Source of the DNA: Solirubrobacter phytolaccae | Lineage (GTDB): Bacteria > Actinomycetota > Thermoleophilia > Solirubrobacterales > Solirubrobacteraceae | Length of the DNA: 42,755 nt | NCBI RefSeq assembly: GCF_027587195.1 | Contig: NZ_JAPDDP010000071.1 | Span: 1 to 42,755 of the forward strand | Reading direction: 5' to 3' | Shown here: piece by piece, positions 26,609 through 42,434 of the stretch | Layout: every line of letters starts with the position of its first letter | Numbering within the stretch: position 1 is the first letter of the stretch | Translations under genes and position numbers: made by a program | Notes under the pieces: model-generated | Told to the model about the DNA's origin: nothing | The model's database searches: none | Seen by the model: the letters and a program-made list of their open reading frames with translations, nothing else

Positions 26609-29173
<2,565 letters not shown>

Positions 29174-29176
29174 GAC

Positions 29177-29473
29177 TTAGGAGCGGTTCGCCTGAGCTTT
29201 GAGTCGGGTGATCGCGGGCTGCCCGAGCGCCGCGTTCAGACGCTCCACGACGAGCTCCGACATCAGCTGGAGCTCGTTCGCCTGGACCGAGCTGTCACAC
29301 GCCACGACGAGCTCTCCGTCGCGTTCGTAGCGCGGTTCACACGTGTTCGCGAACGCCCCGGCGACCGCGGGCCAGTGGCGCTGGATCTTGGCCAGCAGCG
29401 TCGCCGGCTCGAGCCGATCGCCGACCACGTCGAGCGCGAACGAGATCGGGCGTGGGCTTCGCCGGCGCCTCAC
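29177..29473 (-). CDS. DUF721/DciA family protein
   Basis: This 98-residue protein matches the DUF721 fold found in DciA: ALLAKIQRHWPAVAGAFANTCEPRYERDGELVVACDSSVQANELQLMSELVVERLNAAL, where the Trp, the Ala-Asn-Thr, the beta hairpin and the Trp/Gln-like turn are usual. DciA proteins help load the replicative helicase DnaB in bacteria lacking DnaC or DnaI. Its place after recF and before gyrB is the typical actinobacterial order. Its start overlaps the recF stop by four bases. The short length means the helicase-loading tail is minimal. Confidence 0.85.
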   Translation of the reverse strand: MRRRRSPRPISFALDVVGDRLEPATLLAKIQRHWPAVAGAFANTCEPRYERDGELVVACDSSVQANELQLMSELVVERLNAALGQPAITRLKAQANRS

Positions 29474-30570
29474 ACCGGGAGCTCGGATCGAATCTCGCCG
29501 TCGACGATCTCGATGCGGGTCACGTCGGGCTCCTCCCCGCCGGGCACGTGCTCGAGCTCGGTGGTCGTGATCACAGCCTGCCCCTCGCGGCGCAGGAGGT
29601 CCACCAGACGGCCGCGGCGGGTCGCGTCCAGCTCCGACATCACGTCGTCGAGCAGGATCAGCGGAGCGGCCCCGTGCTCGGCGGCCAGCTCCTCGCGCTC
29701 GGCGAGCAGCAGCGCGAGCAGGCCGAGGCGCTGCTGACCGCGCGAGCCGTAGGACCGCAGCTCACGCCCTTCGCGCTTGAACCCGAGGTCGTCGCGGTGC
29801 GGCCCGTGGCCGGTGAAGCCGCGTTCGAGGTCGGAGTCCACGCGCTCGGCGAGCTCGGCGGCCAGCGCCTCCGCGGTGTCGGCCGACGACCGCGGCTTGA
29901 AGCGCAGCTCGACCACGCCCTCGAGGCCCAGCGCCTGTGCATGCTGTGCATAACGAGGGCGAAGCCTGTCGACGGTGGCGGCGCGATCGGCCATCAGCGC
30001 CACGCCGTGGCGGGCGAGCTCCGCGTCCCAGGCCGGCAGCGAGGCCCGTGACGCGCGGCCGGCGCGGATGCTGGCGAGCAGCGCGTTGCGCTGCGCCAGG
30101 GCGGCGCTATAGGAGCGACGCGTGCCCGCACGCGAGGGCCAGAGCGCCGCGACGACCTGGTCCAGGTGGGCGCGACGCAGCGCCGGGGCGCCGAGCACAA
30201 GCTCCAGCCGGTCGGGCAGGAAGACCGAGACGAGCGGCCGCGCGCCGGTGCCGACGAGGTTCTCCACCGGCGCGCCGTCGGCCTTCAGCCGCTTGGCCTC
30301 CCCGGGCTTGAAGCCGACCGTCACCTCGTGGCGGCCGAGCCCGTCCTCGCTCGTGAGCTCCAGCCGCGTCAGCTCCGCGCCGAAGCGGACGACCTCGCGC
30401 TCGTTCGACGTCCGGCACGAGCGGGCGGTGCAGGCGAAGTAGATCGCCTCCAGCAGGTTCGTCTTCCCGGCGCCGTTGCGGCCGGTGATGACGGTGAGTC
30501 CCGGGCCCAGCCGGACTTCCGCAGCGGTGTATGTGCGGAAGTCTCGGAGGCTAAGCCCGGTCAGGATCAA
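29470..30570 (-). CDS. recF: DNA replication and repair protein RecF
   Basis: This 366-residue SMC-like ATPase acts in gap repair together with RecO and RecR. It has Walker A GRNGAGKT (30-37), the signature-like SRGQQRLGLLALLLAE and Walker B LILLDDVMSELD, in the expected order. It begins four bases inside the dnaN end, so dnaN, recF and DUF721 are translated as one coupled block. Length and motifs are normal for the family. Confidence 0.97.
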   Translation of the reverse strand: MILTGLSLRDFRTYTAAEVRLGPGLTVITGRNGAGKTNLLEAIYFACTARSCRTSNEREVVRFGAELTRLELTSEDGLGRHEVTVGFKPGEAKRLKADGAPVENLVGTGARPLVSVFLPDRLELVLGAPALRRAHLDQVVAALWPSRAGTRRSYSAALAQRNALLASIRAGRASRASLPAWDAELARHGVALMADRAATVDRLRPRYAQHAQALGLEGVVELRFKPRSSADTAEALAAELAERVDSDLERGFTGHGPHRDDLGFKREGRELRSYGSRGQQRLGLLALLLAEREELAAEHGAAPLILLDDVMSELDATRRGRLVDLLRREGQAVITTTELEHVPGGEEPDVTRIEIVDGEIRSELPV

Positions 30571-31664
30571 ACGTTGAGGCGGATTGGCATCAGGAGGTAC
30601 TGGAACCCGGCACCGTCATCGAGGAGGCCGGGGCGCAGCGGCGAGATGAGCTTGATGATCACGTCACCGTCGATGGCGTCCAGGCCGTCGCGCAGGAACT
30701 CCGGGTTGAACCCGATCTCCAGCGGCTCGCCGGCGAACGGGACGGGGATCGTCTCGCGCGCCTCGCCGACGTCCGGCGTGCGGGCCGACACCGTCAGCTC
30801 GCCCTCGGTGAACGCGAGCCGCAGCGGCGCGTTCTTCTGCGCCAGCAGCGAGATGCGCCGGACGACCTCGCCGACCTCGCCACCGGCAAGGCGCAGCTCG
30901 TGCTCGTACGTGTCGGGCAGCAGCTGGCGGTAGTTCGGAAACTGGCCGTCGATCAGCCGCGAGGACAGCACGATGCCGCCGGCCGCGAACACGACCTGGT
31001 TGGCGCGCACGGAGACGTTGAGGATCTCCGCGTTCTCGTGCTGGACGATGCGCGTGAGCTCCTGCAGCGCACGAGCCGGCACGTTGGCCTCGAAGCTGCC
31101 GGCCAGCGGCGCTTCGAGCTTGGTCTCCTTGACCGAGAGCCGGTAGGAGTCGGTCGCGACCATCCGCAGCTCGTCGCCCGCGGCCGAGACGAGGATGCCG
31201 GTGAGCACCGGGCGCGTCTCGTCGCGTGACGCCGAGCGGGCGACCATGTTCACGGTGCTGACGAACGCGGCGCCCGGAACCTCGACGACGTCGCCGTCGA
31301 CCTCCGGGAACGGCGGGAAGTCCTCCAGCCGCAGCGTGCGGATGTGGAACGAGGCGGTGCCGCCGAGGATCTCGACGTCCTGCTCGACGGGCCGCAGCTC
31401 GAGCGAGACCTCCTTGCCGGGCAGGGCGCGGACGACGTCCACGACCAGGCGGGCCGGGAGCACCAGGGAGCCTTCGCGGACGACTTCGCCTTCGAGCGGC
31501 ACGCGCAGGCCGATCTCCATGTCGGTCGCGCGCAGCTCGATCCCGTCCTTGGTGGCGAGGAGCTGAACGCCGGACAGCGCCTGGACGGCGCTGCGCGTGG
31601 ATGCGGCGCGCGTGACCGTCTGCAGCTGGGCGAAAAGCGCGTCGCGCCGGGTGGTGATCTTCAT
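30567..31664 (-). CDS. dnaN: DNA polymerase III beta sliding clamp
   Basis: This 365-residue protein is the ring that holds the polymerase on DNA. It begins MKITTRRDALFAQLQTVTRAASTRSAVQALSGV and ends FQYLLMPIRLNV, the conserved clamp tail that carries the hydrophobic pocket for binding partners. Three repeated clamp folds fit the length. AAGGCGG before the ATG is a fair ribosome binding site. It is separated from dnaA by 153 bases that carry DnaA boxes, so it likely has its own promoter. Confidence 0.98.
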   Translation of the reverse strand: MKITTRRDALFAQLQTVTRAASTRSAVQALSGVQLLATKDGIELRATDMEIGLRVPLEGEVVREGSLVLPARLVVDVVRALPGKEVSLELRPVEQDVEILGGTASFHIRTLRLEDFPPFPEVDGDVVEVPGAAFVSTVNMVARSASRDETRPVLTGILVSAAGDELRMVATDSYRLSVKETKLEAPLAGSFEANVPARALQELTRIVQHENAEILNVSVRANQVVFAAGGIVLSSRLIDGQFPNYRQLLPDTYEHELRLAGGEVGEVVRRISLLAQKNAPLRLAFTEGELTVSARTPDVGEARETIPVPFAGEPLEIGFNPEFLRDGLDAIDGDVIIKLISPLRPGLLDDGAGFQYLLMPIRLNV

Positions 31665-31732
31665 TCGGCTGCCGCCTTACGCGTCGAGATCGGGTGATGA
31701 ATCAGTTCAGTGGTCATCGAGGCTGTTCAGTG

Positions 31733-31854
31733 TGTGCACAAGCCTGACGAAGCCCGCTCCAGAGCGGACGTGGCCTGTGCATGAACTGTCGAAGTCTGTC
31801 AGGAGTGCCGGACCGCATCAGTGACCACCCAGTGACCGGAGCAGGTTGTGCACA
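31733..31854. other. oriC: DnaA box cluster between dnaN and dnaA (origin part 1)
   Basis: Two identical boxes TTGTGCACA face each other, at 31741-31733 (minus) and 31846-31854 (plus, inside the end of dnaA). A weaker box TCATGCACA lies at 31784-31776 (minus). CAGTG-containing repeats surround them. The dnaA-dnaN gap is the usual actinobacterial origin position. Confidence 0.6.
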
Positions 31855-33155
31855 GCCTCGTAGGCCTCGCGGTCGGACGCCATCCGCTCCGTGGTGCGGC
31901 GGCAGGCGTGCAGGACGGTGGTGTGGTTGCGGTTCCCGAACGCGCGTCCGATCGTCGGCAGCGTGGCGCCGGTCAGCTCGCGCGCGAGGTACATGGCGAC
32001 CTGGCGGGCGAGTGCGGCGGGCTGGGTCCGGCTCGAGGAGAGCAGGGCGTCCATCGAGACGCCGAACGCCTCACACGCCTGTTCCTGGATCTCCTGGATG
32101 GTCGGGATCGCCTTCTTCTTGGTCAGCTCGGGGTAGAGGCCCGCGAGAACCTCGCGGGCGAGCTCGGCGGTGACCGGCCGGCCTGTGAGCGAGCCGAAGG
32201 CGACCACGCGGATGAGCGCGCCCTCGAGCGCGCGGATGTTCGCGTCCACGCGGTCGGCGATCAGGTCCAGCGCGGCCGGGTCGACCTCGCCGACGTCATC
32301 CTGCGCGACCCGCTTGCGCAGGATCGTCAGGCGCGTGGCGTGGTCGGCCGGCCGGACGTCGCACACGAGCCCGGCCTCGAAGCGCTCGCGCAGCCGGTCC
32401 TCGAGCGCGTCCATATCGCGCGGGAGCCGGTCGGAGGTGAGGACGAGCTGGGCGCCGGCCTGGTGCAGGACGTTGAAGGTGTGGAAGAACTCCTGCTCGG
32501 TCTTCGCCTTCTGGGCCAGGAACTGGACGTCGTCGACGAGCAGGACGTCGACGCCGCGGTACGCGCCTTTGAAGGCCTCCATGTCCCCGCCCTGGATCGC
32601 GGCGACGAAGTGGTCGGTGAACGCCTCGGCCGTCGTGTAGCGGGCGGTCATGCCGCCGCCGTGGTCGTGGACGTAGTTCGCGATCGAGTGCAGCAGGTGG
32701 GTCTTGCCGAGGCCGGGTGGCCCGCAGATGAACAGCGGGTTGTAGGCGAGGCCCGGGGTCTCGGCCACGGCCAGGGCGGCCGCGTGCGCGAGCCGGTTGC
32801 TCTCGCCGATGACGAACTGGTCGAAGGTCAGGCGCGGGTTCAGCTGCTGCGACGCGGGCGCCTGCACGCGGGGGGTCGGGGCGGCCGGCGTCGCGGGCGG
32901 CGCCTCTTCGGGGTCGGCGATCCGGACCGTTGCCCCGGGCCCGAGCACGGTCTCCGCGCAGGCGGTGAGGACGCGGCCGAACCGGGTCTGCGCCCACGAG
33001 CGGACATCGTCGGGCGCCTCGAGGACGATCGTCGTCCCGTCGATCTCCCGGAAGCCCATGCGCTCGAGCCAGATGTGCCAGGTGGACTCGTTGACCGCCT
33101 TGCGGAGCTCACCGCGGAAGCGGTGCCAGACAGTGGCGGAGTCGAGGGCTGACAC
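31818..33155 (-). CDS. dnaA: Chromosomal replication initiator DnaA
   Basis: This 445-residue AAA+ protein opens the origin. Domain I is SALDSATVWHRFRGELRKAVNESTWHIWLERM (1-33), followed by a short Pro-rich linker (84-103). The ATPase has Walker A GPPGLGKT (145-152) and Walker B LLVDDVQF (205-212). Domain IV ends with FGNRNHTTVLHACRR; the usual signature reads RDHTTV, so Asn410 replaces a DNA-contacting Asp. I chose GTG at 33155, since the family sequence begins there and GAGGAGG lies 13 bases before it; an ATG at 33239 would add 28 unlike residues. DnaA boxes occur on both sides of the gene. Confidence 0.97.
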   Translation of the reverse strand: MSALDSATVWHRFRGELRKAVNESTWHIWLERMGFREIDGTTIVLEAPDDVRSWAQTRFGRVLTACAETVLGPGATVRIADPEEAPPATPAAPTPRVQAPASQQLNPRLTFDQFVIGESNRLAHAAALAVAETPGLAYNPLFICGPPGLGKTHLLHSIANYVHDHGGGMTARYTTAEAFTDHFVAAIQGGDMEAFKGAYRGVDVLLVDDVQFLAQKAKTEQEFFHTFNVLHQAGAQLVLTSDRLPRDMDALEDRLRERFEAGLVCDVRPADHATRLTILRKRVAQDDVGEVDPAALDLIADRVDANIRALEGALIRVVAFGSLTGRPVTAELAREVLAGLYPELTKKKAIPTIQEIQEQACEAFGVSMDALLSSSRTQPAALARQVAMYLARELTGATLPTIGRAFGNRNHTTVLHACRRTTERMASDREAYEAVHNLLRSLGGH

Positions 33156-33314
33156 GGGCGCGGAAGAACCTCCTCGGCGGGACCGAGGACGGGGATGAGG
33201 CTGGAAAAGGGGGCCGCGAGACGGCCGGAGCGCGAACATAGCAAAGGGTCGGGAGCCCGATACGCCCCTTCCCCGGAGGGCTCCGCAAATCGCGCACGAA
33301 TGTGAACGCGGACG

Positions 33315-33356
33315 TTGTCCACATCTGTCCGCAGCATGTGCATTGCCCTGTGCACG
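33315..33356 (+). other. oriC: DnaA box cluster between dnaA and rpmH (origin part 2)
   Basis: A clear box TTGTCCACA lies at 33315-33323, then CTGTCCGCA at 33325-33333 (two mismatches) and CTGTGCACG at 33348-33356. They lie in the 305-base divergent gap between dnaA and rpmH, which otherwise has no gene. dnaA autoregulation is an alternative role for this group. Confidence 0.55.
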
Positions 33357-33374
33357 GGCTCGGCGTTGTATCCT
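33343..33374 (+). promoter_or_regulatory. Candidate rpmH promoter
   Basis: TTGCCC at 33343-33348 with TTGTAT (33366-33371) after 17 bases, or TATCCT (33369-33374) after 20. It overlaps the DnaA box at 33348, so initiator binding could influence it. It would give a leader of roughly 80 bases before the GTG of rpmH. Confidence 0.35.
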
Positions 33375-33460
33375 TCTTCGCCGCCGCGCAGCGTGCTCGG
33401 CTCGGTGCTGCGCCGAGCCACGCGAACCATCCCGGCCCGCGGCTAAGGAGTCCACGAACT

Positions 33461-33604
33461 GTGAAGCGCACCTATCAGCCCAAGAAGCGCAAGCGCGCCC
33501 GCACCCACGGGTTTCGTCAGCGTATGAGCACCAAAGCGGGTCGCATCGTCCTGAAGCGACGTCGCGACAAGGGCCGCAAGCGGCTCAGCGTCAGCGACAA
33601 GTAG
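33461..33604 (+). CDS. rpmH: 50S ribosomal protein bL34
   Basis: This 47-residue, very basic protein reads [20 protein letters not shown] and continues with [21 protein letters not shown], a nearly complete match to bL34. The start is GTG at 33461 with AAGGAG at 33445-33450. It opens the rpmH-rnpA-yidD-yidC-khpB-rsmG run on the right of the origin, an order kept in most bacteria. Confidence 0.98.
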
Positions 33605-33614
33605 CCCAAGACCG

Positions 33615-33998
33615 TTGCGCGATCGCGCCCCCCGTCGCCGCAGGTTGTCCCGCAGCGCGGAGTTCGAGCGCGTCTATCGCCAGGGTCGTTCCAAGGGCAA
33701 CCGCTTTCTCGTCCTCTACGCGTTCCCACGCGAGGAGGACGAGCGCCGTGAGGAGCAGGACGGGCCGCGTCTGGGCCTGTCCGTCTCCCGCAAGGTCGGC
33801 GGCGCCGTCGACCGCAACCGGGTCAAGCGCGTGCTGCGCGAGGCGTTCTGGCAAGAGGCCGAGCGGCTGCCGGCCACCTCGGACTACGTCGTCGTCGCGC
33901 GCCCGGACGCGAAGGACCTCGCCGAGCGTGAGGGCACCGAAGGTGTGCGCCTCCAGCTCGCGGAGCTCGTGGACGGCCTTGGCGGCACGTCCGCGTGA
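33615..33998 (+). CDS. rnpA: Ribonuclease P protein component
   Basis: This 127-residue basic protein helps RNase P RNA mature the 5' ends of tRNAs. It has the [19 protein letters not shown] opening, the [25 protein letters not shown] motif (RNR..KR..RE) and an acidic C-terminal tail. The start is TTG at 33615, ten bases after rpmH; the motif placement supports it. Its stop overlaps the yidD start (GTGA). Confidence 0.95.
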
Positions 33999-34228
33999 AG
34001 GTCCTGGCCCTCGGCCCGATTCGCTTCTACCAGCGGTTCATCTCGCCGGCGTTTCCACGCCGGTGCAAGTATCACCCCACTTGTTCGCAGTACGCGGTCC
34101 AAGCCATCCAGCGCTATGGCATCCTGAGGGGCGGCGCCCTCGCGGCGTGGCGTCTCCTGCGCTGCAACCCGTTTAGCCACGGCGGTTACGACCCCGTGCC
34201 CGTCCGTGACACCTCTCCCGTTAGCTAA
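33995..34228 (+). CDS. yidD: Membrane protein insertion efficiency factor YidD
   Basis: This 77-residue protein has the family core [34 protein letters not shown] and [16 protein letters not shown], with the conserved cysteines at CKYHPTC and RCNP. It is a small amphipathic protein on the inner face of the membrane that aids YidC-dependent insertion. The GTG overlaps the rnpA TGA and its stop comes three bases before yidC. Confidence 0.96.
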
Positions 34229-34231
34229 CTC

Positions 34232-35143
34232 GTGATCAACCTCTTCGCTGATGCCCACGGTGGCACGCCGATCATCCAACCGCTGATCGACTTCTTCCAC
34301 TGGATCCTGCTCTTCATCCACGACGAGCTGATCGGTTCCTGGGGCTGGTCGATCATCGCCCTCACCGTGCTCGTGCGCGCGTGTCTTCTCCCGCTGACCT
34401 TCAAGCAGTTCCACTCGATGCAGCGCCTTGCGCACCTGCAGCCCGAGATGAAGAAGGTCCAGGAGAAGTTCAAGGGCGACAAGGAGCGCATGAACCAGGA
34501 GATGATGAAGTTCTACCGCGAGAACAAGGTGAATCCGTTCGCCTCGTGCCTGCCGATGCTGGCGCAGTTCCCGGTCTTCATCTCGCTGTACTACATGCTC
34601 CGCATCGATCTGCGGTACGACATCTGCCCGCAGATCAACAACGGCCGCGAGAGCCCGATCCCGTGTGGATCGGACGACGCGTCGCAGTTCCTGTTCATCA
34701 GCGACCTGACGGACAAGGCGACCGGCGGCACCCTCGCGATCCTGATCATCCTGTACGTCGGCTCGCAGCTGCTGTCCACGCTGCTGATGTCGACGACGAC
34801 GGATCGCACGCAGCGCCTGATCTTCATGGCGCTGCCGTTCATCTTCGTCCTGTTCGTCATCCAGTTCCCGGCCGGCCTGCTGGTCTACTGGATCACGACG
34901 AACATCTGGACGATCGTGCAGCAGGCGATCATCAAGAAGCGCCTCGGCCCGATGCGTCCGCCGCTGGCCGAGGGCGAGAAGCCGCCGAGCCTGTTCGACA
35001 GCTTCAAGCAAGCGAGCCCGGCGACGGCCGCCGTGCCCGAGAAGAAGCCGAAGGTCCGCGGCGAGGAGCCCAGGGGCAAGACGGCCGGACCGCCGCCGAG
35101 ATCACCGCGTAAGAAGAAGAAACGTTCTGGGAGGCGTCGATGA
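34232..35143 (+). CDS. yidC: Membrane protein insertase YidC
   Basis: This 303-residue insertase has five likely membrane segments (about 16-35, 40-60, 107-125, 165-183 and 195-225) of the short Oxa1/YidC form without the large outer domain of Gram-negative bacteria. The conserved arginine lies in LTVLVRACLLPLTFKQ. The cytoplasmic loop LQPEMKKVQEKFKGDKERMNQEMMKFY is typical. The last 60 residues are strongly basic (KKKKRSGRRR), likely to touch ribosomes. The first residue is GTG at 34232. Its end overlaps khpB by four bases. Confidence 0.96.
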   Translation: MINLFADAHGGTPIIQPLIDFFHWILLFIHDELIGSWGWSIIALTVLVRACLLPLTFKQFHSMQRLAHLQPEMKKVQEKFKGDKERMNQEMMKFYRENKVNPFASCLPMLAQFPVFISLYYMLRIDLRYDICPQINNGRESPIPCGSDDASQFLFISDLTDKATGGTLAILIILYVGSQLLSTLLMSTTTDRTQRLIFMALPFIFVLFVIQFPAGLLVYWITTNIWTIVQQAIIKKRLGPMRPPLAEGEKPPSLFDSFKQASPATAAVPEKKPKVRGEEPRGKTAGPPPRSPRKKKKRSGRRR

Positions 35144-35601
35144 GCGATTCCGCCGATCGCGTGCGGGACCTGCTGGAGCACGTGAGCGATGCGCTCGCGC
35201 TGGATGCGGACGTCGTCATCGAGGAGGAGGGCCGGATCATCAAGGCCACGCTCGAAGGCGACGACCTCGGTCTGTTCATCGGCCGTCACGGCCAGACGAT
35301 CGATGCCGTCCAGCACTTGGCGTTCAAGACCGCGACGCGGGATCAGCCGCCGTCCGCGGGTGTGCGCGTGGTCGTGGACGCCGCCGGCTACCGGGAGCGT
35401 CGCGAGCTCGCGCTGCAGCGGCAGGCCGATGAGGCCGCTGCCGAAGCGGTGCGCTCCGGCCGTCCGGTCGCGCTCGACGCCATGAGCGCGACGGAGCGCA
35501 AGGTCGTGCACGAGTACCTGAAGGACCGCGAGGACGTGGAGACCTACTCCGAGGGCGCTGAGCCCGATCGTCACCTCGTGGTTGCTCCGCTGGACAGCTA
35601 G
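35140..35601 (+). CDS. khpB: KH-R3H RNA-binding protein KhpB (Jag/SpoIIIJ-associated)
   Basis: This 153-residue protein has a KH domain with the GxxG loop as GRHG (in LFIGRHGQTIDAVQHLAFKTA) and a C-terminal R3H domain (ALDAMSATERKVVHEYLKDREDVETYSEGAEPDRHLVV). The N-terminal Jag domain found in firmicutes is missing, which is common in actinobacteria. Such proteins bind many RNAs and affect cell length and envelope growth. It is read directly after yidC. Confidence 0.95.
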   Translation: MSDSADRVRDLLEHVSDALALDADVVIEEEGRIIKATLEGDDLGLFIGRHGQTIDAVQHLAFKTATRDQPPSAGVRVVVDAAGYRERRELALQRQADEAAAEAVRSGRPVALDAMSATERKVVHEYLKDREDVETYSEGAEPDRHLVVAPLDS

Positions 35602-35605
35602 TCCG

Positions 35606-35621
35606 CGTTTCACGTGAAACG
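35606..35621. promoter_or_regulatory. parS: parS site 1 (overlaps the rsmG start)
   Basis: CGTTTCACGTGAAACG matches the parS consensus in 14 of 16 positions and is a perfect palindrome. The GTG start of rsmG at 35614 lies inside it. Confidence 0.9.
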
Positions 35622-36279
35622 TCTCGAGGAGGTCGCGCCGGCGCACGCCGTCGAGCCGCTGGCGCGGATCCTCGGGCTGCAGTCGGTCGACCCGACCGCG
35701 TCGACCACGGTCCGTGACCCGGCCGAGGCGGTCGGCCGACACGTTGCCGACTCGCTCTCCGCGCTGCCGTTGCCCGCGGTGAGAGGCGCCCGGCGGATCG
35801 CGGACCTTGGCTCCGGCGCCGGCTGGCCCGGTCTCGCCCTGGCCGCCGCCCTGCCCGACGCCCACGTGTGGCTCGTCGAGAGCGCGATCCGCCACTGCCG
35901 GTACCTGGAGCGGGCCGTCGAGATCAGCGAGCTCACGAACGTGAGCGTCGTGCATGCCCGGATCGAGGAATGGAGCGGCGAGCACGACCTCGTGACGGCT
36001 CGCGCGCTGGCCGCGCTGCCGGTGCTCGTCGAGTACGCCGCGCCGCTGCTGGAGCTCGATGGACACTTCGTCGCGTGGAAGGGCGCCGTGTCCGAGGAGG
36101 AGGCGGCCGCCGGCGCGCTGGCCGCGGACATCGTGGGCCTCGAGTTGGTCGAGCGCGTTGCCGTAGCCCCGTACGCGGGCGCGCGGGACCTTGCCCTGCA
36201 CGTCTTCCGCAAGATCGCTGTCACGCCCGATCGCTTCCCGCGGCGGGCCGGCATGGCGACCAAGCGTCCGCTGGCCTGA
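35614..36279 (+). CDS. rsmG: 16S rRNA (guanine527-N7)-methyltransferase RsmG
   Basis: This 221-residue enzyme methylates G527 of 16S rRNA. The SAM site is IADLGSGAGWPGLALA (62-77), followed by VWLVESAIRHCRYLERAVE and VVHARIEEW, and TARALAALPVLVEYAAPLL in place of the usual VSRAVAPL. The start is GTG at 35614; no other start codon occurs in the next 30 codons. The start lies inside a parS site, and no Shine-Dalgarno is visible between the khpB stop (35601) and the GTG. Loss of RsmG in other species gives low-level streptomycin resistance. Confidence 0.94.
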   Translation: MKRLEEVAPAHAVEPLARILGLQSVDPTASTTVRDPAEAVGRHVADSLSALPLPAVRGARRIADLGSGAGWPGLALAAALPDAHVWLVESAIRHCRYLERAVEISELTNVSVVHARIEEWSGEHDLVTARALAALPVLVEYAAPLLELDGHFVAWKGAVSEEEAAAGALAADIVGLELVERVAVAPYAGARDLALHVFRKIAVTPDRFPRRAGMATKRPLA

Positions 36280-36296
36280 GCTCCGCGCAAATAGCG

Positions 36297-36312
36297 CGTT
36301 TCACGTGAAACG
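36297..36312. promoter_or_regulatory. parS: parS site 2
   Basis: CGTTTCACGTGAAACG, identical to the copy at 35606-35621. It lies in the gap between rsmG and parA, 26 bp centre to centre from the third site. Confidence 0.92.
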
Positions 36313-36322
36313 CTCGGCGGGG

Positions 36323-36338
36323 TGTTTCACGTGAAACA
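36323..36338. promoter_or_regulatory. parS: parS site 3 (perfect consensus)
   Basis: TGTTTCACGTGAAACA, a perfect 16-bp parS, 40 bases before the parA start. ParB binding here and at site 2 could also regulate parA. Confidence 0.95.
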
Positions 36339-36378
36339 CGCGGGTCCGACCGAACCCGCCGCTAGCTTCGGAGTCCGC

Positions 36379-37134
36379 ATGGGCACCATCTACGCGATCG
36401 CGAATCAGAAGGGCGGGGTCGGCAAGACGACCACCGCGGTGAACGTCGCCGCGTGCATCGCCGCCGCCGGCTACGAGACGCTCGTCGTGGACGTCGATCC
36501 GCAGGGCAACGCCACCGTGGGCTTGGGCGTCGCCCGAGAGGGCGTGGGGGTCTATGACGTCCTCGGAGGGGACGTTTCCGCCCGGGAAGCCGTCCGCGCG
36601 ACGGACATCGAGCGGCTCTCCATCCTGGTCTCGACGCCCGACCTCGCCGGCGCGACCATGGAGCTGCCGCGGCTCCCCGGGTCCGAGCGCCGCCTGCGTG
36701 AGGCGCTCGAGCCGCTCCGCGAGGACTACGCGTTCATCCTCCTGGACTGCCCGCCGTCCCTCGGGCCGTTGACCGTCAACGCCCTGGTCGCTGCCGAGCG
36801 GGTCATCGTCCCGGTTCAGACGGAGTACTTCGCGCTGGAGGGCCTCGCCGGCCTGCTGGACACGCTGTCGCTGATCCAGCGCGACCTGAACCCGCGCCTG
36901 ACGGTCGCGGGGATGCTCCTGACGATGCACGACGCGCGCACGAAGCTGGCCCAGGATGTCGAGCGCGAGGTCCGCGCCCACTTCCCGGCGCTCGTGTTCG
37001 ACACCGTCATCCCGCGGAACGTCCGCCTGGGCGAGGCGCCGAGCTACGGCATCCCCGTCATCCATCACGATCCGCACTGCTCCGGGGCCGAGGCCTACTT
37101 CGAGCTCGCCAAGGAGGTGGCCGCGCGTGGCTGA
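36379..37134 (+). CDS. parA: Chromosome partitioning ATPase ParA
   Basis: This 251-residue protein moves newly copied origins apart. The deviant Walker A is KGGVGKTTT (from Lys11), with DVDPQGNATVGLG (switch region) and FILLDCPPSLGPLTVNAL (Walker B). I chose ATG at 36379 because GGAG lies five bases before it and the product then has normal Soj/ParA length; a GTG at 36322 lies inside parS and would add 19 unlike residues. TAGCTT at 36363-36368 could be a -10. It overlaps parB by eight bases. Confidence 0.97.
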   Translation: MGTIYAIANQKGGVGKTTTAVNVAACIAAAGYETLVVDVDPQGNATVGLGVAREGVGVYDVLGGDVSAREAVRATDIERLSILVSTPDLAGATMELPRLPGSERRLREALEPLREDYAFILLDCPPSLGPLTVNALVAAERVIVPVQTEYFALEGLAGLLDTLSLIQRDLNPRLTVAGMLLTMHDARTKLAQDVEREVRAHFPALVFDTVIPRNVRLGEAPSYGIPVIHHDPHCSGAEAYFELAKEVAARG

Positions 37135-37993
37135 GCGTCCCCGCGGCATGGGTCGCGGCCTCGCCGCGATTCTCGCCCCCACCGAAGGTGTCGCGCCGGC
37201 GGCGGAGCTGCGTCAGCTCCCGGTCGACCTGATCGCGCCGAACCCGCGCCAGCCGCGGCAGGTGTTCGACGAGGCGGCACTCCTGGGCCTCTCGGAGTCG
37301 GTCAAGGAGCGCGGCGTCCTCCAGCCCGTCCTCGTCCGGCCCTGTCCGGGTGGCTCCTACGAGCTCATCGCGGGTGAGCGCCGGTGGCGCGCCGCCCAGC
37401 TCGCCGGCCTGGAGGTCGTTCCGGCCGTCGTCCAGCCGCACGAGGACCGTGAGTCGCTCGAGATCGCCCTGATCGAGAACATGGCCCGCGAGGACCTCAA
37501 CCCGATCGAAGAGGCCCGCGCCTGCTCGCTGCTCGTGGACGAGCTCGGCCTCACCCGGGAGGAGGTCGGCCGCCGCGTCGGCCGCTCTCGCGTCGCCGTC
37601 TCGAACCTCCTGCGCATCCTGGACCTCCCGGACGAGGTCCTGGACATGCTCATCGAGGGTCGGCTCACCGAGGGCCACGGGCGCGCGCTCCTGATGGCGC
37701 CCGATCACGGCGACCGCCGCCGGCTCGCCCGTAGCGCCGCCGACGAGGAATGGACGGTCCGCGAGACCGAGGCCCGCGCGCGGGAGACCACACGCCCGGC
37801 TGAGCCCGTAAAGGCCGGCCGTGAGCTGCATCCGGACCAGGAGGAGGCCGCATCCCGGATCGGCGACGTCTTCCTACGGGCGTTCGGCGCCGACGTGAAG
37901 GTCAAGCCGCGAGGTGCGGGCTACACCGTGGCTCTGACCTTCGAGTCCCTGGACGAAGCTCTGGAACTCGCGTCACGATTCGACCGCGCATAA
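37127..37993 (+). CDS. parB: Chromosome partitioning CTPase ParB
   Basis: This 288-residue protein loads on parS and spreads as a sliding clamp. It begins with a ParA-interacting MGRGLAAIL segment, then has the CTP-binding GERRWRA (83-89) and IENMAREDLNPIEEA motifs, a helix-turn-helix (about 145-175: LTREEVGRRVGRSRVAVSNLLRIL) that reads parS, and a C-terminal dimer domain. GTG at 37127 has AAGGAGG nine bases ahead, so this start is well supported. Confidence 0.97.
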   Translation: MAERPRGMGRGLAAILAPTEGVAPAAELRQLPVDLIAPNPRQPRQVFDEAALLGLSESVKERGVLQPVLVRPCPGGSYELIAGERRWRAAQLAGLEVVPAVVQPHEDRESLEIALIENMAREDLNPIEEARACSLLVDELGLTREEVGRRVGRSRVAVSNLLRILDLPDEVLDMLIEGRLTEGHGRALLMAPDHGDRRRLARSAADEEWTVRETEARARETTRPAEPVKAGRELHPDQEEAASRIGDVFLRAFGADVKVKPRGAGYTVALTFESLDEALELASRFDRA

Positions 37994-38021: not shown

Positions 38022-38095
<74 letters not shown>

Positions 38096-38102
38096 CACTC
38101 GC

Positions 38103-38799: not shown

Positions 38800-39747
38800 A
38801 TGGAGCTGCGTGGGATCTCGTACGCCACGGACGCCGGTGGCGACACGGCCCGCGATCTCGGCGTCATCCGCGAGGAGCTGCACTGCACCGCGGTGCTGCT
38901 CTACGGGTCCGATCTCGAGCGGCTGAGTGAGGCGGCGCGGCGCGCGCTCGACGTCGGGCTCGACGTGTGGTTCCAGCCGCGGCTCGCCGACCGGCCACGC
39001 CGCGCGCTGCTCAGGCATCTCGCTCGCGCCGCTGAGGACGCGGAACGGCTCCGGGTCGAGCATCCCGGCCGCGTGGTGCTCGTCGCCGGCTGCGAGTTCT
39101 CGCTGTTCACGCGCGGGATGATCCCCGGCCCACACACGATGATCCGGCTGCGCATGCTGCGGTTCATGCCGCGGCTGCGGCCACGGGTCACACGGAAGCT
39201 GAACGCGTTGCTGGCTCGGGTGGAGCCGCTCGTGCGGGCGCGGTTCAACGGGCCGGTGACGTACGCGGCGGCGTTCTGGGAGGACGTGGACTGGTCTCGG
39301 TTCGACCTGGTCGGCCTGAACCTCTACCGGATGGGCTGGAACGCAGCTGTCTACGAGGACACGGTGCAGGCGCAAGTCGGGGACAAGCCGGTCGTGATCA
39401 CCGAGTTCGGGTGCTGCGCGCACGTCGGCGGCGAGCTTTCCGGACCAGGCGGGTTCATGATCGTCAGGTGGCTCGGGTCGCAGCCGTCGATCCGGCCCGG
39501 ACACGTGCGCGACGAGCAGGTGCAGGCCCGGTACCTCGAGGAGTGCGTGGAGGTCTACGAGCGCGCCGGCGTCCACGGGGCGTTCGCGTTCACGTTCGCG
39601 ATGCCGGACTTCCCGCACCGGCCCGACGACCCGGAGCACGATCTGGACATGGCGGGCTTCGGGGTCGTGAAGGTCGCGCCGGACGATCCCTCGCGATGGG
39701 CGCGAAAGGCCGCATTCCACGCTCTGGAGCGGAAATTCGGTACGTGA
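38800..39747 (+). CDS. TIM-barrel glycoside-hydrolase-like protein
   Basis: This 315-residue cytoplasmic protein looks like a (beta/alpha)8 barrel of the GH-A clan: GISYATDAGGDT at the first strand, VWFQPRLAD, VLVAGCEFSLFTRG with an acidic residue, FDLVGLNLYR and VVITEFGCCAHVGG, where the Glu in TEFG is placed like a hydrolase nucleophile. It ends with FAFTFAMPDFPHRPDD. No signal peptide is present. Substrate is unknown and it may not be a hydrolase. It follows the solute-binding gene by seven bases, so the two may act together. Confidence 0.65.
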   Translation: MELRGISYATDAGGDTARDLGVIREELHCTAVLLYGSDLERLSEAARRALDVGLDVWFQPRLADRPRRALLRHLARAAEDAERLRVEHPGRVVLVAGCEFSLFTRGMIPGPHTMIRLRMLRFMPRLRPRVTRKLNALLARVEPLVRARFNGPVTYAAAFWEDVDWSRFDLVGLNLYRMGWNAAVYEDTVQAQVGDKPVVITEFGCCAHVGGELSGPGGFMIVRWLGSQPSIRPGHVRDEQVQARYLEECVEVYERAGVHGAFAFTFAMPDFPHRPDDPEHDLDMAGFGVVKVAPDDPSRWARKAAFHALERKFGT

Positions 39748-39786
39748 GAAGTCTCTAATCGGTTCCTCACGGTCGGCTTACGGCGC

Positions 39787-39803
39787 GAGGGGATTCTCCT
39801 CTC
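39787..39803 (+). repeat. Short hairpin before the Arg-rich gene
   Basis: GAGGGGA and TCCTCTC form a seven-pair stem (one G-T pair) with loop TTC, 40 bases after the previous stop and 19 bases before the ribosome binding site of the next gene. It may end the upstream message or shape the leader. Confidence 0.4.
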
Positions 39804-39834
39804 ACACCGTCAAACCACCCACGGGAGGAACCCC

Positions 39835-39972
39835 ATGGCTCACCGGTCTTTCAAGGCCATCACCGCCGCGGCGCGCATCTCCAGCGCCAACTCGGACTCC
39901 AACAGCAACACCGGCCGTCGCCGCAAGAAGGTCCGGCGTCGCCGGCGTCGCCGCAACCGCTCGAACACCTAA
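39835..39972 (+). CDS. Small Arg-rich basic protein (45 residues)
   Basis: I do not recognise this protein. It reads MAHRSFKAITAAARISSANS, then a Ser/Asn/Asp linker, then a block of about 14 Arg and Lys within residues 28-42 and the ending NRSNT. A strong ribosome binding site, GGGAGGAA (39823-39830), lies four bases before the ATG, and the stop is nine bases before the ABC transporter gene. The charge suggests RNA, ribosome or DNA binding, like the tiny basic proteins found in actinobacterial ribosomes, but no family match is claimed. Confidence 0.7.
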   Translation: MAHRSFKAITAAARISSANSDSNSNTGRRRKKVRRRRRRRNRSNT

Positions 39973-39981
39973 GCACCGACC

Positions 39982-41685
39982 GTGCGCCTGCTCGACCGCC
40001 TCAGCGCCGCGCTCGCGCCGGCCGCGGACGACGACCAGTTGGTCGCCGCCGCGCCGGCGCAGCGGGTGCGCGGGATCGTCCGCCGCTTCTGGCCGCTCGC
40101 TCGCCCCTTTCGGCGCAAGTGGATGGCCGGCCTGGTGCTGGCCGCGTTGCTGCCGGCGGTGGAGGCGGTCGAGATCTGGCTCTTCAAGTCCGTCGTCGAC
40201 GGGGTCCTCGTCCCGGCGGACCTCGGCGCCCTGTGGCCGCTCGCCGCCGCCATGGCGGGGCTCGCGCTGATCGGCGCCCTGCTCTCGTTCGGCGACGAGT
40301 ACATCGCCACCTGGGTGGGGGAGCGGTTCACGCTCGCGATGCGCGGCCGCGTGTTCGCGCACCTGCAGTCCCTCGAGCCCGACGCGCTCGACAAACGCCG
40401 CCACGGGGACGTCCTGTCCCGCCTGACCGGTGATCTCCACGCGATCGAGACGCTGCTGCTGTCCGCGCTCGCCGAGGCCGTGCAGGCCGCGGCGCGGCTC
40501 TTCTTCTTCGTCGGCGCGCTCTTCCTGCTCTCGTGGAAGCTCGCGCTCGCGTCGCTGATCGTGATCCCGCCGCTCTATTGGGCCGCGCGCCGCTTCGGGC
40601 GACTCGCGCGCCGTGCCGCACGGGAACGCCGACGGCGCTCCGGGACGGTCGGCGCCGTGCTCGAGGAGGCGCTCGCCAACACTGCGCTCGTCCAGACCGC
40701 CAATACGCAGGCTCGCGAACAGGCGCGGCTACGGCGCGAGAACGAGGGCGCCATGGAGGCCGAGCTGGCCGGCACGCGCATCGCCGGGCTCTTCGCGCCC
40801 GTGATCGACCTGATCGAGCTCTTCGGCGCGATCCTCATCCTCGCGCTCGGCACCTGGGCGCTGAGCTCCGGCGACCTGACCCTCGGCGGCCTGCTCGCGT
40901 TCCTCGCCTATCTCTCCCAGCTCTACCGCCCGCTCCGGGACCTCTCACGGCTCTACCAGCAGGTCTTCGAGGCCACCGCGGGCGCCGAGCGCGTCATGGA
41001 GCTGCTCGACACGCCCCCGAGCGTCACCGAGCGCCAGGGCGCGCGTGAGCTGTCGCGCGCCCGTGGGCGGCTGGAGCTGCGCGGCGTGCACTTCACCTAC
41101 GATCGCCAGGCGCTCGCCGGCGTGAGCCTCACGGTGGCGCCGGGGCGCTGCATCGCGCTCACCGGGGCGAGCGGCGCGGGCAAGTCCACCGTCGCCAAGC
41201 TGGCGGTGCGCTTCCTGGACCCGGACGCCGGCACGGTCCACCTCGACGGGCATGACGTCCGCGACCTCACGCTCGAGTCCTTGCGTCGCAACGTCGCGCT
41301 GCTGCTGCAGGACGCGCCGCTGATCGACGGCACGATCGGCGACAACGTCGCGTACGGGAACGACGCGAGCGAGGCCGACGTCCGGCGCGCGCTCGCCGCG
41401 ATCGGGCTGGACCTGCCGCCCGACACGCCCGTCGGGCAACGGGGCCGCGCGCTCTCCGGCGGCCAGCGCCGCCGCGTCGCGATGGCGCGCGCGCTGCTGC
41501 AGGACGCGCCCGTCCTGATTCTCGACGAGCCGACTGCCGGGCTGGACCCGGAGGCGGCCCGCGCGCTCGTCGGCCCGCTGCGCGAGCTGGCGCGCGACCG
41601 GGCGACCTTGATGATCACCCACGACCGCGAGCTGGCGGCCGCCGCCGACGAGGTCGTCGTCCTGGATGGAGGCCGGCTCGCATGA
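39982..41685 (+). CDS. ABC transporter, fused membrane and ATPase domains (exporter type)
   Basis: This 567-residue half-transporter has an exporter-type membrane domain (about 45-320, six helices) and an ATPase domain with Walker A GASGAGKST (395-403), Q-loop LLQDAPLIDGTI, signature LSGGQRRRVAMARAL (491-505), Walker B VLILDEPTAGLD (511-522) and the switch His in MITHDRE. It would work as a homodimer. Substrate cannot be read from sequence. It begins with GTG nine bases after the Arg-rich gene and ends overlapping the kinase gene start (ATGA), so transport and phosphorylation are translationally coupled. Confidence 0.94.
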   Translation: MRLLDRLSAALAPAADDDQLVAAAPAQRVRGIVRRFWPLARPFRRKWMAGLVLAALLPAVEAVEIWLFKSVVDGVLVPADLGALWPLAAAMAGLALIGALLSFGDEYIATWVGERFTLAMRGRVFAHLQSLEPDALDKRRHGDVLSRLTGDLHAIETLLLSALAEAVQAAARLFFFVGALFLLSWKLALASLIVIPPLYWAARRFGRLARRAARERRRRSGTVGAVLEEALANTALVQTANTQAREQARLRRENEGAMEAELAGTRIAGLFAPVIDLIELFGAILILALGTWALSSGDLTLGGLLAFLAYLSQLYRPLRDLSRLYQQVFEATAGAERVMELLDTPPSVTERQGARELSRARGRLELRGVHFTYDRQALAGVSLTVAPGRCIALTGASGAGKSTVAKLAVRFLDPDAGTVHLDGHDVRDLTLESLRRNVALLLQDAPLIDGTIGDNVAYGNDASEADVRRALAAIGLDLPPDTPVGQRGRALSGGQRRRVAMARALLQDAPVLILDEPTAGLDPEAARALVGPLRELARDRATLMITHDRELAAAADEVVVLDGGRLA

Positions 41686-42434
41686 CGGGCTACGCGACGA
41701 TCGCGCACCTGAACCGCTCGAACCGCTACGACACCTACGAGGTGTGGAGCGCCGAGCGCCTGTGCTCGTGCGTGGCCAAACGCCCGCGCGCCGACGCGCC
41801 GAAGAAGACCGCCGGTGAGCTGCGGCTCGAGGGCGAGCGGCTGGTGGCGCTCTGCCACCCGCACATCGTGCGCGGCTACGAGGTGCTCGAGGAGGGCCCG
41901 ACCGTGATCATGGAGACCCTCGACGGCGAGACCCTCGCGCACCTGATCGCGGCCCAGACGCTGGAGGCGGACGAGGTCGCGTGGCTCGGGCTCCAGCTCG
42001 CCTCCGCGCTCGAGTACCTGCATCGCCAGGGCCTCCTGCACCTCGACGTCAAGCCCGGGAACGTGATCGCCACCGGCGGGCGCGCCGTGCTGATCGACCT
42101 GTCGCTCGCCCGCGAGCCCGGCCGCTACAAGCGCGGCCTCGGCACCTGGTGCCACCTCTCGCCCGAGCAGGCCCGCGGGGACGCACTGACGACGGCTGCG
42201 GACGTCTGGGGGCTCGGCACGGTGCTGCTGGAGGCTGTGACCGGGCGGCCGGCCTTCGAGCAGGAGGAGCCCGAGTTCCCGCAGCTCGTCCACGCGCCGC
42301 CCCGCGCGGAAGGACCGCTCGGCGACGTGATCGCCGCCTGCCTGGCCTTCGAACCGCACGCTCGCCCGTCCCTGACCGAAGTCGCCGCCGCGCTGCGTCC
42401 GCACGCGCCCGGCGCCCGACCCTGGAGCGACTGA
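41682..42434 (+). CDS. Atypical soluble Ser/Thr protein kinase
   Basis: This 250-residue protein is a kinase domain only, with no membrane helix or sensor. The glycine loop is not recognisable (IAHLNRSNRYDTYEVW), Lys33 lies in CVAKRP, the catalytic loop reads HLDVKPGN (Asp122, with Leu in place of the usual Arg) and DFG is changed to DLS (Asp139). The SPEQ and ADVWGLGTVLLE segments are normal. The key Lys, Asp, Asn and Asp are present, so activity is possible, but control by activation-loop phosphorylation is unlikely because it lacks the Arg. It overlaps the ABC gene by four bases. Confidence 0.88.
   Translation: MTGYATIAHLNRSNRYDTYEVWSAERLCSCVAKRPRADAPKKTAGELRLEGERLVALCHPHIVRGYEVLEEGPTVIMETLDGETLAHLIAAQTLEADEVAWLGLQLASALEYLHRQGLLHLDVKPGNVIATGGRAVLIDLSLAREPGRYKRGLGTWCHLSPEQARGDALTTAADVWGLGTVLLEAVTGRPAFEQEEPEFPQLVHAPPRAEGPLGDVIAACLAFEPHARPSLTEVAAALRPHAPGARPWSD

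Follow-up and report, generated by a model that had tools for sequence, protein, structure and literature searches.

A short Arg-rich gene of Solirubrobacter phytolaccae heads a peptide, ABC exporter and kinase cassette and may encode an exported leader-plus-cargo peptide

What is the role of a 45-codon open reading frame (ORF) with a block of arginines near its end in Solirubrobacter phytolaccae? The frame lies at positions 39835-39972 on the forward strand of the window, the whole 42,755-nucleotide (nt) stretch of contig NZ_JAPDDP010000071.1 that was analysed. The first-pass annotation had read it as a nucleic-acid-binding peptide that gene finders easily miss, perhaps a lineage-specific protein of the ribosome or nucleoid. 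We find that it stands first in an operon, followed by an ATP-binding cassette (ABC) exporter and then by a Hanks-type kinase, and that such cassettes recur in distant actinobacteria. The explanation we favour, and consider probable from the comparisons below, is that the gene encodes a leader-plus-cargo peptide that would be exported by the ABC protein, phosphorylated by the kinase and placed under envelope-type control.

The frame opens with an ATG at 39835 and runs for 45 codons to a stop codon at 39970-39972. A strong ribosome-binding site, GGGAGGAA, is located at 39823-39830 on the same strand, with its GGAGG 6 nt from the ATG. The encoded peptide of 45 amino acids (aa) consists of an N-terminal leader-like segment, MAHRSFKAITAAA, an Asn/Ser/Thr stretch, an Arg/Lys block and an NRSNT tail. 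The block, RRRKKVRRRRRRRNR (residues 28-42), has 15 residues, 11 of them Arg and 2 Lys, close to the 14 or so first estimated. The peptide matched its own genome once. Syntenic, intact copies of the gene were found in three of six other Solirubrobacter genomes, G004 (96% identity) and G001 and G006 (80% each), the latter two being apparently one strain (Solirubrobacter CPCC 204708) that we counted once rather than as independent cases, and more distant genomes likewise carry intact copies. The genomes G002, G003 and G005 of the same genus gave neither a peptide-profile match (expect value, E, 0.01) nor an exporter match (E 1e-30). Between the window and G004, differences were found at 11.0 of 35.0 synonymous and 4.0 of 100.0 nonsynonymous sites, a ratio of nonsynonymous to synonymous differences per site (pN/pS) of 0.13. 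The pooled pN/pS over 87 peptide pairs was 0.33 (range 0 to 1.32), a value biased low because the pairs were picked by protein similarity; the window-G004 pair is also fixed by synteny. Because syntenic copies are intact in relatives, beyond what chance would give, and the substitutions are mostly synonymous, these comparisons indicate that the ORF is a real gene, constrained as a protein. To this extent the first-pass annotation was correct: the gene is small and easily missed, its ribosome-binding site is strong, and its frame proved intact in the related genomes where such a check had been proposed.

Database searches placed the peptide in no family. The window peptide matched 0 families in Pfam, NCBIfam or PADLOC, and seven peptides compared with Pfam and six with NCBIfam yielded no family and two chance-level matches, one at E 0.28 and the other, at E 0.079, between one relative's peptide and an S19 model of NCBIfam. 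Rfam found a tRNA alone over the window, and a scan of 39500-40200 for sigma-70 promoters and terminators gave no match. Two matches in a plasmid collection had no gene annotated at either place, in a gene table that is incomplete.

The exporter gene (39982-41685, forward strand) begins 9 nt past the peptide stop codon. It encodes a half-transporter of 567 aa with a membrane domain and an ATPase (Pfam ABC_membrane, 1.1e-44; ABC_tran, 4.5e-34), related in sequence to MsbA and ABCB1. Besides these two domains Pfam gave generic ATPase matches alone, and the C39 peptidase domain of bacteriocin exporters was not found by Pfam in this protein. The kinase gene (41682-42434, forward strand) overlaps the 3' end of the exporter gene by 4 nt and encodes a stand-alone Ser/Thr protein kinase of 250 aa (Pfam Pkinase, 1.5e-26). 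K33, E50, D122, K124 and N127 are kept in all 36 usable cassette kinases, and D139, in a DLS rather than a DFG motif, is kept in 35, the remaining one being unreadable; the cassette kinases have the catalytic Lys, the Glu, the HxDxKxxN motif and the metal-binding Asp of Hanks-type kinases. PknB-type kinases matched the window kinase (1.4e-25 in NCBIfam; 2e-20 for PknB of the PDB) better than did the kinase region of class IV lanthionine synthetases (6.7e-20, 71 bits against a cut-off of 650). PADLOC compared the kinase to mad6 (4e-34) and PD-T4-6 (3e-32) and the exporter to mad3 (8e-31). We set this defence identity aside, as the matches span the kinase domain alone and mainly the ATPase part of the exporter, and we also set aside a MAD6 identity for the kinase, which scored 73 bits against a cut-off of 460 with the NCBIfam model; a defence role for the cassette is possible. 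In genome G011 a DUF2252 gene follows the kinase gene (L010, 3292-4632).

How regularly do peptide and exporter occur together? Exporter loci were gathered by a search with the transporter membrane domain, and the DNA around the matches was taken. At least 115 distinct loci were obtained, 109 of them at 38% identity or above. An upstream small peptide gene was assigned in 99 of these 109 (52 of 58 in a clade with the kinase and 47 of 51 in a clade without it, described below), although for 18 of the 99 the assignment used a prefix chosen by eye, so that 99/109 is not a blind count. Peptide and adjacent type IV ABC exporter are conserved as a pair, which is the minimal unit of the cassette. By comparison, any short ORF with a ribosome-binding site was found upstream in 102 of 106 exporter loci and 82 of 172 control genes. 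Ten loci had no assigned peptide (L053, L192, L094, L095, L135, L066, L188, L190, L093 and L083): the exporter start is off the contig in L053 and L192, the match begins inside the exporter in L094 and L095, L066 has a leader-like sequence with no usual start codon properly placed, and at L190 a script match was removed by eye. Six exporters below 38% identity, all without a peptide, were left out (L078, L182, L099, L102, L101 and L055); L182 (37.6%) sits within the kinase-free clade of the tree, and including it gives 99/110. For the genus Streptomyces 78 places were listed, of which 30 were loci taken at first, 40 more were fetched, 3 were already included and 5 were left out.

The cassettes occur in Thermoleophilia, Nocardioidaceae, Streptomyces and the family f20, not in one lineage alone, and the label lineage-specific had to be dropped. 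Hosts among the matches listed are Solirubrobacter deserti, Conexibacter arvalis, Patulibacter americanus, Nocardioides kribbensis and 12 Streptomyces records, and exporter matches were obtained in 11 of 39 genomes of family f20 and 54 of 199 of the genus Streptomyces. When the search was made with the peptide profile, 10 of 29 genomes with matches, including all nine best matches, had the exporter directly downstream. The other 19 (E 9e-4 or weaker) had no exporter within the 1.5 kb taken, and their weak matches were set aside for that reason. We found no description of the cassette in the open-licence literature searched, which does not prove that it is unpublished, and within the main text of PMC7794033 the words 'kinase' and 'arginine' occur 0 times. 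A Nonomuraea exporter locus carries a Cys/Trp/Arg-rich ORF of 38 aa with a good ribosome-binding site (L194, 3804-3920), possibly another cargo type.

The peptides share their start and differ in the remainder. A strict N-terminal motif, F-x3/4-P, occurs at 79 of the 106 exporter loci for which 450 nt of upstream sequence was available and in 0 of 172 control genes from 35 of the loci; a looser start pattern gave 81 of 106 and 4 of 172. The common leader form is M-[A/S]-x-F-x3/4-P-A, which is degenerate and lacks the Pro in the genus of the window; among the starts read are MAIFSSLMPA, MAKFSEMSPA, MRFSKTSPA and MSFHKIAPV. We count the window peptide among these peptides for its homology to the Conexibacter (E 7.4e-5) and G011 (E 2.4e-4) copies and for its synteny. 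Behind the conserved N-terminal segment, the C-terminal part varies: Arg with Asn/Ser/Thr tracts are found in Thermoleophilia, f20 and Nocardioidaceae, Gly/His/Asp tracts in most kinase-clade Streptomyces peptides, and Lys/Pro and Arg/aromatic tracts in the kinase-free Streptomyces clade. The Arg block persists across the branch to which the window belongs (Thermoleophilia, Nocardioidaceae and family f20), whereas in the related cassettes of Streptomyces it largely gives way to Gly/His/Asp or Lys/Pro runs and the N-terminal motif and the exporter remain. Such a swap would be more readily expected of a cargo peptide than of a conserved protein that binds nucleic acids. Of the 99 loci, 12 carry two peptide genes; the kinase-free clade, with 47 of the 99, accounts for 11 of these 12, and L041 was added by eye. 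Two Thermoleophilia peptides are unusual: at L052 (G032) a divergent peptide upstream of the exporter has 18 consecutive Arg and then an acidic tail, and at L061 the Arg block comes first. On the exporter side, the acidic residues E61 and E279 in hydrophobic segments are kept in more than 90% of both clades, against fractions of 0.20 and 0.40 in 5 distant exporters, and D105 is kept in the kinase clade only; E61 and E279 would fit a cationic cargo.

A tree of 101 exporters divided them into a kinase clade of 54 rows and a kinase-free clade of 44 rows, with support of 95 and 99, respectively, in the Shimodaira-Hasegawa-like approximate likelihood ratio test; this was a quick tree without bootstrap, in which two kinase-free-clade rows stand on long branches. 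Cargo type was clustered on it, requiring 25 changes against a shuffled mean of 57.5 with composition thresholds that we set ourselves. Three kinase queries located a kinase gene downstream of the exporter at 52 of the 58 first-clade loci and at 0 of the 51 second-clade loci, of which 50 have at least 800 nt downstream and 44 have 1500. For five of the kinase-less first-clade loci (L138, L110, L094, L121 and L093), the sequence past the exporter extends for roughly 800 nt at most. Ser/Thr residues after residue 10 had a median of 6 in kinase-clade peptides (n=53; 1 with none or one) and of 0 in kinase-free-clade peptides (n=56; 48 with none or one). We propose the peptide as a kinase substrate because of this contrast between the clades.

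What controls the cassette? Two repeats precede the peptide gene on the forward strand of the window. An operator-like inverted repeat, TGAGAAGTCTCTAA (39745-39758), starts 90 nt before the peptide start, and a direct repeat read in the sequence, CTCAC-N6-CTTAC (39766-39781), has its halves 11 bp apart, the usual spacing for OmpR/PhoB-type response regulators. The inverted pattern T[GT]AGA-N4-TCT[CA]A, drawn from the counted loci themselves, precedes the peptide gene at 16 of 24 non-Streptomyces kinase-clade loci and is found with 6 of 247 control genes; in the window it does not reach significance by itself (2 matches at up to 1 mismatch, both this site; 1.85 expected). The composite of inverted and direct repeat, searched in 8 genomes, was found twice in the 7.7-Mb genome of the window and once each in G001 and G004 at the same gene, with none in the other five and none for a reversed control pattern. 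The second site in the window's genome (L201, 1501-1537; G000:C81:217901-217937) lies 88 nt before the gene of a 184-aa protein that begins like a signal peptide and matched nothing in Pfam, possibly a co-regulated secreted protein. At 9 of the 19 non-Streptomyces kinase-clade loci with gene calls a histidine kinase gene lies no more than 5.5 kb upstream, compared with 7 of 102 control genes, and at six of these nine a response regulator was also among the gene calls. These sensors form two groups rather than one family (L009, L038, L039, L040 and L041; L143, L144, L149 and L152), and the one scanned is a HAMP-type kinase. The window's genome has homologues of the first-group sensor at 60% and 58% identity, the former adjoining an OmpR-type regulator gene (G000:C79).

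The Streptomyces group has a different promoter. CATCC/CAATC-N16-CGTA (one with N17), ending 32-51 nt before the start codon, was found at 25 of 28 peptide genes and at 0 of 247 controls. An extracytoplasmic function (ECF) sigma gene and an anti-sigma-like gene lie near 5 of 10 Streptomyces loci with wide flanks; one such pair was scanned, and its zinc-finger match was just below the cut-off. The promoter motifs suggest two-component control and, in Streptomyces, an ECF sigma factor, regulators that usually report envelope or extracellular signals. Between the peptide gene and the exporter, a hairpin with z < -2 was predicted in 53 of 80 testable loci (gap of at least 32 nt, 40 shuffles per locus); the gap is shorter in 19 loci, among them the window, and these were left out of this test.

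How could these genes work together? We infer that the ORF yields a precursor-like peptide, with a short N-terminal recognition segment and a fast-changing low-complexity cargo, which in the window would be Asn/Ser/Thr plus poly-Arg. The neighbouring half-transporter, as a homodimer, would export it. The kinase, encoded last, would phosphorylate Ser/Thr between the leader and the Arg block before or during export, probably for regulation or maturation of the peptide. Transcription would be switched on by envelope-type signalling, through a two-component system in Thermoleophilia and an ECF sigma factor in Streptomyces, and in the many cassettes with a hairpin after the peptide gene (not the window) the hairpin may give an excess of peptide over exporter. 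At the envelope or beyond it, the exported product would probably bind anionic polymers or metals or serve as an antimicrobial. Export fits because of the regular pairing, the duplicate peptide genes, the conserved start with a changing remainder, the acidic exporter residues and the hairpin.

Several observations weigh against this explanation. The motif was derived from the loci in which it was counted, so that 79/106 is partly circular and the zero among controls is the informative half; the window peptide, with the degenerate SFKAITAA and no Pro, falls outside the strict motif. An acidic channel need not imply a cationic cargo, and E61 and E279 are only presumed to face the channel. The link between kinase and Ser/Thr amounts to one evolutionary split between two clades, not many, and a kinase-clade locus with 2777 nt downstream, L071, has no kinase, the sole real exception. 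No two-component genes stand beside the cassette in the window's own genome, where the sensor homologues lie elsewhere. The net charge of first-clade peptides ranges from -9 to 20, so that one common outside function is not obvious. The cassette is patchy, with exporter matches in 14 of 146 genomes of the family and 22 of 396 of the phylum, low-identity ones included. Among the genes beside 35 cassette loci, surveyed as clusters read by eye with ten proteins scanned with Pfam, no protease or other maturation enzyme recurs.

Could the peptide instead stay inside the cell? A small basic ribosome or nucleoid protein, binding RNA or DNA through its Arg block, would account for that block, for its conservation within the window's own branch and for the strong ribosome-binding site. 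This explanation is the weakest, and we regard it as highly improbable, because other cargos replace the Arg block beside related exporters; in addition, the gene goes with the exporter, both being absent from three genomes of the same genus, and no Pfam or NCBIfam model matched the window peptide. Of the first-pass interpretation, then, the conserved small gene is supported and its ribosome or nucleoid identity is not. An intracellular partner, that is, a disordered peptide that regulates either the exporter or the kinase, perhaps as a substrate or inhibitor of the latter, while the exporter carries something else, would agree with the kinase in the operon and with Ser/Thr-rich peptides being found mainly in the kinase clade. 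Yet peptide and exporter persist alone in the kinase-free clade, where 11 of 47 loci have two peptide genes, and hypervariable cargo would be unusual for a regulatory subunit; we consider it unlikely, if the least so of these alternatives.

Two further explanations concern the ORF as a regulatory element and the peptide as a modified natural product. Consecutive Arg codons can slow ribosomes, and an ORF directly upstream of an ABC gene, with a hairpin between the two in 53/80 loci, could be a regulatory leader in which stalling on the Arg or low-complexity run attenuates transcription or translation of the exporter. Two peptide genes at one locus are expected of a cargo and not of such a leader, and the second copies have diverged; moreover, an N-terminal protein motif is conserved while the remainder differs in composition, the substitutions indicate constraint at the protein level, and the 9-nt gap of the window is too short for a terminator. 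Regulation by a leader ORF is in our judgement quite unlikely. Still somewhat less probable is a ribosomally synthesized and post-translationally modified peptide (RiPP) whose residues are phosphorylated by the kinase and then dehydrated by elimination, as in class III-V lanthipeptides. The layout of leader and core, the adjoining ABC exporter and the match of the kinase to class IV lanthionine synthetases would suit it, but PknB-type kinases match better, the lyase and cyclase genes or domains expected of class III, IV or V lanthipeptides do not recur among the neighbours at the 35 loci, and Cys occurs in just 4 of 53 kinase-clade peptides.

The exported leader-plus-cargo peptide that we favour can be compared with known systems. 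The cassette may work like a small RiPP or bacteriocin operon in which the kinase would be the sole recurrent candidate maturation enzyme of the 35 loci. Class V lanthipeptide clusters have further genes; unlike them, the cassette has no recurrent lyase, cyclase, decarboxylase or methyltransferase, and its core is of low complexity with Cys rare. Exporters of the McjD type are dedicated ABC exporters without a peptidase domain in bacteriocin and microcin operons. Like these operons, the cassette has a short leader and variable cargo next to a half-transporter; unlike them, its cargo consists of low-complexity charged repeats, no immunity or maturation gene recurs, and the kinase is confined to one clade. 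The peptide quorum-sensing operons ComC-ComAB-ComDE also combine a peptide and an ABC exporter, with a histidine kinase as near 9/19 non-Streptomyces cassette loci, whereas the cassette exporter lacks C39 peptidase and the scanned sensor is of the HAMP type. The Streptomyces promoter we take to resemble the SigK consensus, a resemblance not found in the literature searched. As in the mycobacterial ECF system SigK/RskA, a CATCC/CAATC promoter goes with nearby ECF sigma and anti-sigma-like genes; the identity of the sigma factor as SigK is only presumed, and this promoter type differs from that upstream of the window gene. Class V lanthipeptides such as cacaoidin (PMC8068269 and PMC9486802) undergo kinase-dependent dehydration, and with these the cassette would share a small precursor gene and the kinase-dependent chemistry proposed here.

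The surroundings of the cassette are as follows. Genes reading like dnaA, dnaN, recF, gyrB, yidC, rsmG, parA and parB (28001-37200) lie near it in the window, names that were assigned by reading, in a gene order common to L007; the cassette is probably close to the replication origin. A tRNA-Ile (GAT) at 38024-38098 lies between the parAB-like genes and a gene for a family-3 solute-binding protein. At L140 (3690-6795) a Streptomyces cassette is preceded by ferric-reductase-like, FMN-binding and ApbE genes, and similar genes occur at L146 and L148, Pfam having been used for L140 only and shared clusters for the other two.

Taken together, an unannotated 45-codon ORF has become the marker of an uncharacterised operon type that is patchy across actinobacteria. 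More tentatively, and with less confidence than in the favoured explanation itself, we suggest that the cassettes may represent an undescribed actinobacterial secretion class, in which disordered, low-complexity polyionic peptides would be exported on one short leader and, in one branch, a dedicated kinase would phosphorylate the cargo. The cargos of this putative class would be poly-Arg/Asn, Gly/His/Asp, Lys/Pro and Arg/Gly/aromatic, and we would hold, just as tentatively, that the product is an exported phospho-regulated polyelectrolyte and not a modified antibiotic. If the peptides are exported, one exporter family handles cargos with a common segment of about ten residues, the remainder being Arg, His/Gly or Lys/Pro runs; the leader could then be tried as an export tag, and the cassettes would supply natural polycationic or metal-binding peptides. 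Whether a bacterial Hanks kinase can be dedicated to a single exported substrate could be tested directly through the contrast between the clade that has the kinase and the one that lacks it.
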